The notes under the pieces: generated by a model
Seen by the model: only the letters and a program-made list of their open reading frames with translations
The model's database searches: none
What the model was told of the DNA's origin: nothing
Translations under genes and position numbers: made by a program
Shown here: positions 27,173 to 53,820 of the stretch, piece after piece
How the letters are laid out: every line of letters starts with the position of its first letter
Numbering within the stretch: the stretch's first letter is position 1
From: a virus
Direction: 5' to 3' (one strand)
Virus record (IMG/VR): IMGVR_UViG_3300022074_000037
Location: 1 to 61,734 of that record
DNA length: 61,734 nucleotides

Positions 27173-27357
27173 ATATTATCTGGCACATATTACTAACAGT
27201 GTGTTCTGGTAGTACTTGTTTGGAACAGGATGTACAGTGGTTTGAAAGTCGTGCAAATTGTGAAACCATGTTAGTAGAATATACAGAAATACCTGTTGAT
27301 GGTAGTTGGGATACAGTCGAATATATCTGTAAACCAGTAGGAAGTAGAGGAACATAA
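27169..27357 (+). CDS. Small exported Cys-containing protein
   Basis: 62 residues. Hydrophobic N-terminus (MNIIWHILLTVCSG), four to five Cys, and a C-terminal YICKPVGSRG. The C-terminal Y-x-C-K-P-V motif also occurs in the product at 33339, so they may be paralogues. ATGA overlap with the preceding gene and TAATG overlap with the nuclease. Confidence 0.65.
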   Translation: MNIIWHILLTVCSGSTCLEQDVQWFESRANCETMLVEYTEIPVDGSWDTVEYICKPVGSRGT

Positions 27358-27782
27358 TGTATCAATACAAATGTAAATTGGTGAAAGTAGTTGATGGTGA
27401 CACAATTGATGTTGACATTGACTTGGGCTTTGGAGTGTGGTTACGCAAACAACGGATTCGTATGTATGGTATCGACACACCAGAATCTAGAACCAGAGAC
27501 TTAGAAGAAAAGAAATATGGATTGGCCGCAAAGGCGTTCCTAGAGAAATGGACAAACGCTGGTCATCTTGTTCTTAGAACATTTAAGGATGGTAAAGGTA
27601 AGTATGGTCGTATCCTTGGACAGATTTGGTACGAGGACACTCACAATATTAATCAACTTCTAATCGACAATCATCATGCGGTTGCATATCATGGTCAATC
27701 AAAACAAGAGATTGCTGAGGAGCATATCAAAAACAGAGAGTTCGTTAATCTTAACGATGCTGTAAAATCCCTTGACAATTGA
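27357..27782 (+). CDS. Thermonuclease (SNase-like)
   Basis: 141 residues. KVVDGDTIDVDIDLGFGVW, then RIRMYGIDTPESRT and KYGRILGQI: the Asp (DGDT), Arg (R in RMYG) and Asp/Glu catalytic set of staphylococcal nuclease-type enzymes (PF00565) is present. No clear signal peptide, so it may act in the cytoplasm on host DNA or RNA. The tmRNA promoter overlaps its 3' end. Confidence 0.9.
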   Translation: MYQYKCKLVKVVDGDTIDVDIDLGFGVWLRKQRIRMYGIDTPESRTRDLEEKKYGLAAKAFLEKWTNAGHLVLRTFKDGKGKYGRILGQIWYEDTHNINQLLIDNHHAVAYHGQSKQEIAEEHIKNREFVNLNDAVKSLDN

Positions 27783-27802
27783 ATCAGTCTTTGGTATAAA
27801 TA
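27772..27802 (+). promoter_or_regulatory. Dual early/late promoter of the tmRNA gene
   Basis: TTGACA (27772-27777), N17, TATAAA (27795-27800): a near-consensus sigma70 promoter. The same -10 reads TATAAATA (27795-27802), the late-promoter core, so the RNA could be made throughout infection. Confidence 0.85.
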
Positions 27803-27806
27803 TAAT

Positions 27807-28092
27807 ACAGTTTGATGATACAAATCAAAGGACGGACAGGACATGGGGGCAGTACCCATCGCCTCCACCATAACTACTCTTAGATGAGATAGTGAATCAC
27901 TGCATGAGAGTAGTTATGATGGGGGCGAACTAGGTTCGACTGACGTAGATAGAGGCGAGTAGAATTGTCGGATGACTGCGTAATAGGTCAAAACTCGTAA
28001 ATGCAAACGATAACAATGCATATGTAGATTACGCTCTCGCAGCCTAATCGTACTGAGTTTCGGTGGTGTACTTGGAAACAGAAACACCACCA
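27807..28092 (+). ncRNA. ssrA: Circularly permuted (two-piece) tmRNA
   Basis: Acceptor piece first: hairpin TTTGAT/ATCAAA (27811-27829), T-arm ATGGG/CCCAT (27843-27859), 3' acceptor strand CGCCTCC (27860-27866) and ACCA (27867-27870). Intervening segment 27871-27920 carries ATAACTACTCT/AGAGTAGTTAT. Coding piece: 5' acceptor strand GGGGGCG (27921-27927), pairing all seven positions with CGCCTCC (one G-T), then a tRNA-like D region AACTAGGTTCGACTGACG, a CGAGT/ACTCG stem (27956-27960/27993-27997) and the tag frame 28003-28047, ANDNNAYVDYALAA-stop. A hairpin GGTGGTGT/ACACCACC (28062-28091) ends it. The T-loop GGCAGTA is atypical. It rescues stalled ribosomes and tags nascent proteins for proteolysis. 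Confidence 0.92.
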
Positions 28093-28110
28093 CTTAATTT
28101 TGGAGATAGT

Positions 28111-28602
28111 ATGTATAAGGTGACAGGACAGTTTAAAGAACGCAAGGTAGTAAAATACTTTGTTGACCTGTATGACGCTATTGATTTTAAGGATAATGTG
28201 GATGCACACTATCCAATGAAACTGACGATGGAAAAGGTAATTGATATGAGAGAATTTATTCATGACAGTTGGCACAGTGTAATGAATGCCGACAAGAACC
28301 CACTAAGACATATCCCAGATACTAATACTAGACATATGGTACTACAGGTACTTGCATGGATGTGGTGTATTGTATTTTCAATGTGGATTGGTAGTTTTTG
28401 GGTTATGGGTGTAAGTATGATTGCCCATGCCTTGATACTTGCGGCCATTGTAATTACAGTTGCAACCTTTGAGACTGCAAGATTACGTCCTACATTCTTT
28501 ATGCACTTTCCTACATCGACACCAAGTCGTGCAAGAGATATCTGGATTGACGGTAAGAAAATTAAACTAGACCCACAAGATAAAGGTGGTGAACATGAAT
28601 AA
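28111..28602 (+). CDS. Membrane protein, conserved in marine T4-like phages
   Basis: 163 residues from ATG 28111 (TTGGAG upstream). N-terminal soluble region (YKVTGQFKERKVVKYFVDLY), a PxRHIP segment, two membrane helices (VLAWMWCIVFSMWIGSFWVM and HALILAAIVITVATF) and a cytoplasmic end. Immediately follows the tmRNA hairpin. Function unknown. Confidence 0.75.
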   Translation: MYKVTGQFKERKVVKYFVDLYDAIDFKDNVDAHYPMKLTMEKVIDMREFIHDSWHSVMNADKNPLRHIPDTNTRHMVLQVLAWMWCIVFSMWIGSFWVMGVSMIAHALILAAIVITVATFETARLRPTFFMHFPTSTPSRARDIWIDGKKIKLDPQDKGGEHE

Positions 28603-28732: not shown

Positions 28733-28944
28733 CGCCTTAATACGTCCGTGTGGGGTCACGGTTAACTCCACAACACAGAGACACCGCATCCTAGGCAAGC
28801 ACTGTGGTACTATAGACCTCTGTGTCAACACGAAAGGAGAAGGGTGGGTTAGTCACCACCTTGCAACAGTCGGTATATATGACTGCTCTGCTGTATAAAA
28901 TCAGATAGAGGGTGACTCCCTCTATCGTCTTAAAGGAATATAAT
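28733..28944 (+). ncRNA. Structured non-coding region, candidate RNA
   Basis: 212 bases without a credible ORF between a membrane-protein gene and gp33. In order: TGTGGGGT...ACTCCACA (one G-T), ACACAGAG...CTCTGTGT enclosing ACCGCA...TGTGGT, GGTG...CACC, CAGTC...GACTG and GATAGAGGG-TGACT-CCCTCTATC, which sits just before the gp33 Shine-Dalgarno (AAAGGAA). Five adjacent stems in one short region suggest a functional RNA or structured leader. No known RNA family is recognised and no T-run follows the last stem. Confidence 0.45.
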
Positions 28945-29166
28945 ATGGAAAAATTGATGACACCAAAAAAGTTCTCACTTGCAGTGGAACAAGTTGTTCA
29001 AGAGTGTGGTTGTTCTCATATGGAAGCAGTACTAGATTACTGTGAGAAAAACAACATCGAACCAGATACCATCAAACCCCTTATTACAAAATCACTGAAG
29101 GAAAAGATTGAGTGTAATGCAAGGGATTTAAATTACCTACCAAAAGTTGCACAGTTGCCCGTATAA
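28945..29166 (+). CDS. 33: Late transcription coactivator (T4 gp33-like)
   Basis: 73 residues from ATG 28945 (AAAGGAA upstream). MTPKKFSLAVEQVVQE, SHMEAVLDYCEKNNIEPDT and KSLKEKIECNARDLNYLP follow the pattern of gp33 in marine T4-like phages. gp33 bridges host RNA polymerase and the sliding clamp for late transcription at TATAAATA promoters, which are abundant here. The gene order gp33-gp59 and nearby gp32 repeats T4. The match is by pattern, so slightly uncertain. Confidence 0.72.
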   Translation: MEKLMTPKKFSLAVEQVVQECGCSHMEAVLDYCEKNNIEPDTIKPLITKSLKEKIECNARDLNYLPKVAQLPV

Positions 29167-29750
29167 TGGAAGCCTATGACGCATATAGAATATATCATGC
29201 GTTGAAACTTCACTTTACCAGTAACTATGACTATGCAAAATATAATGGTAAGGCGAATGTGAGCGTTGACTCGTTCTTAAAACGTAATGATAGGCCTTTC
29301 TTTGGTAAGGTCGCAAGAAAGTATAAAGAAGATACCAAAGACTTCTTCATATCCAACTTCATAGTCAATCCCAAAGGCTGGGTTGGAAACTTTAACGATG
29401 AGAATTATTTGAACTGGAAGAAAAGAAATCAATCCCTTAAATATAATTACAAATCAGAGATGGTTGAATTATTTCACAAAGTTGAATCATTCGATGAAAT
29501 ATTTCAAGGTGGTGGACAACACCCCTTGTTATTAAAACAATTCATGTCCAAGAAGGTTTCGATTGAGACAGTCGCAATACTGGAATCACTTCTTGGTTTC
29601 TGCAACCGTTTTGATAAGGAGATTAATGAAACGATAGTATGGCCCGACAGAAAAAAACTGATAAAAAATTATAGTAACCTCTTGACAAATGATGTAAATG
29701 AGTATAGAGTAGTAACAATGCAGTTAATAAAGGAGCATTTTGATGACTGA
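29166..29750 (+). CDS. 59: Helicase loader (T4 gp59-like)
   Basis: 194 residues. YDAYRIYHALKLHFTSNYDY, AKYNGKANVSVDSFLKRNDR, FFGKVARKYK and FFISNFIVNPKGWVG align by eye with T4 gp59 (217 residues), the all-helical protein that loads gp41 helicase on forked DNA coated with gp32. TAATG overlap with gp33 and the nearby gp32 gene support the call. Confidence 0.88.
   Translation: MEAYDAYRIYHALKLHFTSNYDYAKYNGKANVSVDSFLKRNDRPFFGKVARKYKEDTKDFFISNFIVNPKGWVGNFNDENYLNWKKRNQSLKYNYKSEMVELFHKVESFDEIFQGGGQHPLLLKQFMSKKVSIETVAILESLLGFCNRFDKEINETIVWPDRKKLIKNYSNLLTNDVNEYRVVTMQLIKEHFDD
29682..29710 (+). promoter_or_regulatory. Sigma70-type promoter, weak -10
   Basis: TTGACA (29682-29687), N17, TAGAGT (29705-29710), inside the end of gp59, upstream of the operon leading to thyX. 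Confidence 0.55.
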
Positions 29751-50301: not shown

Positions 50302-50490
50302 TTGATAATCTATAAATGCAATAAAGATACGGAGATATATTTGTTAGATAAGTTTCATTTCAAAGTAATCTACCCAGACGGAGAGGTAGAGTATTGGTTT
50401 AACACAGTCGCAGAGACAATCGCAGAGTTGTCCAGACTACAGAAGATACATGACAACAAGGTTCAAATCAAAGGGCCACTAACACTATAG
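50302..50490 (+). CDS. Small hypothetical protein
   Basis: 62 residues from TTG 50302 (IIYKCNKDTEIYLLDKFHFK ... YPDGEVEYWFNTVAETIAEL). A later TTG at 50341, after GGAG, is an alternative start. Its stop overlaps the first base of the tRNA. Confidence 0.55.
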   Translation: MIIYKCNKDTEIYLLDKFHFKVIYPDGEVEYWFNTVAETIAELSRLQKIHDNKVQIKGPLTL

Positions 50491-50566
50491 GGCCTGTAGT
50501 TCAACTGGATAGAATGTCAGTCTACGAAACTGAAGGTTCATGGTTCGAGTCCATGCAGGCCCACCA
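50490..50566 (+). tRNA. tRNA-Arg (ACG)
   Basis: 77 bases including an encoded CCA. Acceptor GGGCCTG/CAGGCCC, D-arm GTTC/GAAT, anticodon stem TCAGT/ACTGA with loop CTACGAA (anticodon ACG), T-arm CATGG-TTCGAGT-CCATG. Reads CGN codons after A34-to-inosine editing. Confidence 0.95.
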
Positions 50567-51321: not shown

Positions 51322-51407
51322 GCCCCTGTGGTGGAATAGGTAGACACACAAGACTTAAAATCTTGAGACTTTTAGTCGTGCGAGTTCGAGTCTCGCTGGG
51401 GGCACCA
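51322..51407 (+). tRNA. tRNA-Leu (TAA)
   Basis: 86 bases with encoded CCA. Acceptor GCCCCTG with TGGGGGC, anticodon stem CAAGA/TCTTG with loop CTTAAAA (anticodon TAA), long variable arm (GACTTTTAGTC) typical of Leu, T-arm GCGAG-TTCGAGT-CTCGC. Confidence 0.95.
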
Positions 51408-53742: not shown

Positions 53743-53820
53743 GCATCCTTAGCTCAGCTGGATTAGAGCAACGGTCTTCTAAACCGTAGGTCACAGGTTC
53801 GAGTCCTGTAGGATGCGCCA
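53743..53820 (+). tRNA. tRNA-Arg (TCT)
   Basis: 78 bases with encoded CCA. Acceptor GCATCCT/AGGATGC, D-arm GCTC/GAGC, anticodon stem ACGGT/ACCGT with loop CTTCTAA (anticodon TCT, reads AGA/AGG), T-arm ACAGG-TTCGAGT-CCTGT. Confidence 0.96.

Follow-up and report, generated by a model that had tools for sequence, protein, structure and literature searches.

The locus described here raises two questions: whether a marine phage encodes an intact permuted two-piece tmRNA (ssrA) of its own, and whether that gene was taken recently from a host. A first-pass annotation, made from the letters alone, had proposed such a tmRNA and suggested its acquisition from a host, with a putative takeover of ribosome rescue. 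The window, that is, the whole stretch of 61,734 nucleotides that was analysed, is a 61.7-kb linear contig. Its gp32 is 69% identical to that of phage Melnitz and 61% identical to that of Pelagibacter phage HTVC008M; together with a shared gene block, this places the phage among the marine T4-like myoviruses, near Melnitz and the pelagimyophages. We find that the window contains an intact permuted two-piece tmRNA gene of alphaproteobacterial type.

Results

Identity and anatomy of the gene

In Rfam searches, RF01849 (alpha_tmRNA) matched positions 27768-28094 with 123.0 bits (gathering score 50, E 4.5e-33), and RF04321 (tmRNA_permuted) matched positions 27807-28047 with 122.9 bits (gathering score 47, E 1.5e-23), each scoring more than twice its gathering score. 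ARAGORN independently called a permuted tmRNA with the tag ANDNNAYVDYALAA. The permuted two-piece form was thus borne out, by a covariance search of the kind that the annotation had named as its check as well as by a separate program. For the stretch that spans the acceptor strands and the spacer hairpin (27860-27927), the folding energy is -35.7 kcal/mol, versus -13.8 kcal/mol (sd 2.8) for shuffled sequences (z -7.9); this fold and the Rfam and ARAGORN calls together put the tmRNA signal far beyond chance.

As annotated, the acceptor piece, with its encoded CCA, precedes the coding piece (Table 1). The acceptor strands, proposed to pair over seven positions, do so at all seven, with a G.U at the third pair (G3-U70). 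G3-U70 is the alanine identity element in tRNA-Ala and tmRNA. The tag frame described as ending in ALAA and a stop is the one that ARAGORN reports, and ANDNNAYVDYALAA has the -AA degron ending of alphaproteobacterial-type permuted tmRNAs. The suggested stem joining the pieces across the spacer agrees with the stable fold and with a base stem that covaries in viral spacers. The start of the acceptor piece, however, had been put at 27811 and very likely lies near 27807 instead, given the pairing of 27807-27813 with the coding piece. A weak match of mir-3524 to the spacer scored far below the gathering score and was dismissed as a chance hairpin.

Table 1. Features of the tmRNA locus and its neighbours (positions in the window)
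Feature	Position	Strand	Basis or remark
Endonuclease phrog_452, upstream neighbour	27357-27782	+	hmmscan E 3.3e-39
Promoter, TTGACA (27772-27777), 17 nt, TATAAA (27795-27800)	27772-27800	+	read in sequence
Acceptor piece	27807-27870	+	RF04321, RF01849, ARAGORN; compensatory changes in T stem and inter-piece helices
T arm	27843-27859	+	within acceptor piece
3' acceptor strand CGCCTCC	27860-27866	+	read in sequence
Discriminator A	27867	+	
Encoded CCA	27868-27870	+	end of acceptor piece
Spacer, 50-nt hairpin extending acceptor stem	27871-27920	+	fold z -7.9; base stem covaries
Coding piece	27921-28092	+	RF01849, ARAGORN; conserved in relatives
5' acceptor strand GGGGGCG	27921-27927	+	start of coding piece
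Tag reading frame ANDNNAYVDYALAA, then TAA	28003-28047	+	ARAGORN; same or near-same tag in close phage relatives
3' hairpin of coding piece	28062-28091	+	
Protein of unknown function, downstream neighbour	28108-28602	+	tblastn: in Melnitz and relatives; no PHROG match
Late-transcription coactivator, gp33-like	28912-29166	+	phrog_254 E 1.4e-22
Helicase loader, gp59-like	29166-29750	+	phrog_269 E 2.2e-57

Pairing is maintained in relatives

Homologous phages provided the pairing support on which the annotation had made its proposal depend, with compensatory changes in the acceptor stem, the T arm and the inter-piece helices. A pattern scan that used sequence only yielded at least 120 viral stretches. 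Its search pattern left the outer two pairs of the T stem free, and among the matches listed these were paired in 44/45 and 45/45 distinct sequences, each pair showing all four Watson-Crick types. For 33 distinct T4-like phage relatives, a consensus fold computed de novo on both pieces joined, with the spacer omitted, recovered the T arm and acceptor stem as well as the inter-piece helices (27807-27813/27962-27968, 27832-27834/27944-27946 and 27837-27839/27940-27942), and variable pairs mostly occurred as two to five standard pair types. Acceptor and T-stem counts in this fold are biased, since the 33 relatives had been selected for seven of seven acceptor pairs and at least four of five T-stem pairs; the inter-piece helices played no part in the choice. 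The compensatory changes indicate continued selection on the tmRNA.

Promoter and genomic site

The tmRNA has its own promoter, which overlaps the 3' end of the upstream endonuclease gene. The layout TTGACN-N15-19-TATAAN stands upstream of the tmRNA in 70 of 134 distinct stretches (129 viral and 5 bacterial) versus 0.1% of shuffles, with a spacing that is nearly always 17 nt. The gene lies between the endonuclease (phrog_452) and the gp33-gp59-gp32 block, which is common to many IMG/VR relatives. ARAGORN also found three tRNA genes elsewhere in the contig: Arg-ACG (50490-50566), Leu-TAA (51322-51407) and Arg-TCT (53743-53820).

A two-piece tmRNA was reported in 2022 in Methylophilales phage Melnitz EXVC044M (MZ577097; AEM, PMC9004378), together with a survey of 402 tmRNA phages in which two-piece forms, nearly all of them aquatic, made up 53 of the 133 distinct tmRNA structures. 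Since phages of the same group were already reported with such genes, the tmRNA described here is a further member and not a new kind. The Melnitz tmRNA is likewise permuted and of the alpha type (81% identity over 78% of the query), has the same promoter layout and carries the tag ANDNYVPVDYALAA; the order tmRNA, late-transcription coactivator (gp33), gp59, gp32 is the same in both phages. In Melnitz, however, a glutamine riboswitch directly follows the tmRNA, whereas an Rfam search for one near the present tmRNA gave no match.

An old gene of the phage lineage

With the alphaproteobacterial two-piece tmRNA (RF01849; merged permuted model RF04321) the phage gene shares gene order, helices, CCA, G3-U70 and the tag start AND. 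This type would also suit a host ssrA copy that was captured recently or is decaying, and that serves no phage function. In a tree of 166 tmRNAs, 32 of them from alphaproteobacterial genomes, the present tmRNA (represented by the identical L129) nevertheless falls in a phage-only clade of 101 with a support of 0.97, in a tree that is built from short sequences, rooted at the midpoint and weak in its inner branches. The nearest phage tmRNAs are 94-97% identical to it and the 12 nearest phage sequences span 83-97%, against 60-63% for the nearest alphaproteobacterial tmRNAs in the sampled set. Promoter and genomic site are conserved, and the compensatory changes speak for continued selection, so that a functionless captured copy is extremely improbable. 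The recent acquisition from a host that the annotation suggested does not fit the phage-only clade and the conserved gene neighbourhood; these comparisons favour the view that the tmRNA, though of alphaproteobacterial type, has long belonged to the phage lineage.

Among the bacterial sequences, an alphaproteobacterial genome of 4.1 Mb carries a tmRNA with a phage-like tag, ANDNVASQDFALAA (G388:C2:778480-778577; L203, L233). A phage origin was considered for this best bacterial match and rejected, as no T4-like neighbours lie within 17 kb.

Small genes in the spacers of relatives

The unexpected result lies outside this phage's own sequence, in protein genes within the spacers of its relatives. 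Across 118 distinct viral examples, the spacer between the pieces measures between 4 and 266 nt. Its base stem pairs at -8 kcal/mol or below in 96.5% of 86 distinct spacers, versus 19% with the ends swapped; what is conserved in the stem is its pairing rather than its sequence, and covariation maintains it. Small ORFs with Shine-Dalgarno-like sequences occur in the spacers of L002, L036, L066, L088, L095, L100, L128, L158 and L234-L244. The Melnitz spacer, 142 nt long, holds an unannotated small ORF of 54 aa, whereas that of the present phage is a 50-nt hairpin with no gene in it.

In simple pairwise counts, made without a formal test, pN/pS was 0.07 for a 69-aa family (L036, L095), 0.14-0.43 for a 44-aa membrane-protein-like family (L066, L088, L100, L075), 0.26-0.50 for a 47-aa family (L128 and relatives) and 0.28-0.44 for the Melnitz-type ORF, and in shifted frames it was mostly about 1 or above. 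These values (0.07-0.5) indicate that the spacers of several relatives, among them Melnitz, hold small protein genes under purifying selection. Members of the 69-aa family occur widely in viral contigs; of the 80 best loci, 11 have the gene within a tmRNA spacer.

In the spacers of L066, L088 and L100, two small reading frames of about 22 and 44 aa overlap, and each has its own Shine-Dalgarno-like sequence. The first of these, AAAGGAGAT, pairs with ATCTCTTTT, the bases immediately upstream of the coding piece, an arrangement that looks like a link between translation and the precursor fold. Gene-less spacers of about 70-110 nt, of a similar form that recurs in several phages, are found in L022, L026, L051, L142 and L184, and in these no Rfam family matched beyond the tmRNA models. 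We lean towards the view that the tmRNA spacer is a cargo site, flanked by a covarying stem, for unrelated small protein genes or alternative structured RNAs. A literature search of partial coverage, notably of the older key papers, found no report of genes in two-piece tmRNA spacers.

Discussion

The phage ssrA gene is complete and looks functional, and it is very probably used for trans-translation with host factors. A single precursor would be transcribed from the gene's own sigma-70-like promoter and would fold with the acceptor stem continuous with the spacer hairpin. Host tRNA-processing nucleases would then excise the spacer, leaving an acceptor RNA that ends in CCA and a coding RNA, and the acceptor helix together with P2 would hold the mature pieces to each other. 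Host AlaRS would charge the molecule via G3-U70, and host SmpB and EF-Tu would deliver it to stalled ribosomes, after which ANDNNAYVDYALAA would be added. The likely benefit to the phage is that ribosomes are kept free and truncated proteins cleared while phage nucleases degrade host transcripts. Searches of the window and of the complete Melnitz genome turned up no SmpB gene, which suggests dependence on the host protein and is consistent with use of host SmpB by the phage tmRNA.

The tags of some close relatives (L045, L103, L132, L151, L164 and others) end in AQAA or AIAA, not ALAA. Such endings could weaken the proteolysis signal or alter recognition by ClpXP, which counts against this reading. 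This variation would also fit a decoy or competitor, a phage tmRNA that binds SmpB or ribosomes and so inhibits or adjusts trans-translation in the host. As cited in PMC11915505, mycobacteriophage DS6A has a tmRNA-like gene lacking a CDS that is reported to inhibit the endogenous tmRNA upon expression in E. coli. The tag frame, the resume region, G3-U70, CCA and all tRNA-like helices are kept, however, which is more than a decoy requires, and we regard this alternative as unlikely.

With trans-translation as the preferred reading, the gene is a well-supported addition to those of lytic marine phages with a ribosome-rescue RNA of their own, an RNA that probably keeps translation going in such phages during transcript degradation. 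With the comparative set, two questions become testable: why these phages encode a tmRNA without an SmpB, and what makes small genes recur inside the tmRNA spacer. If the spacer is indeed a cargo site, a single transcript would couple tmRNA maturation to protein expression, and the phage described here would have the minimal, gene-less form of it.
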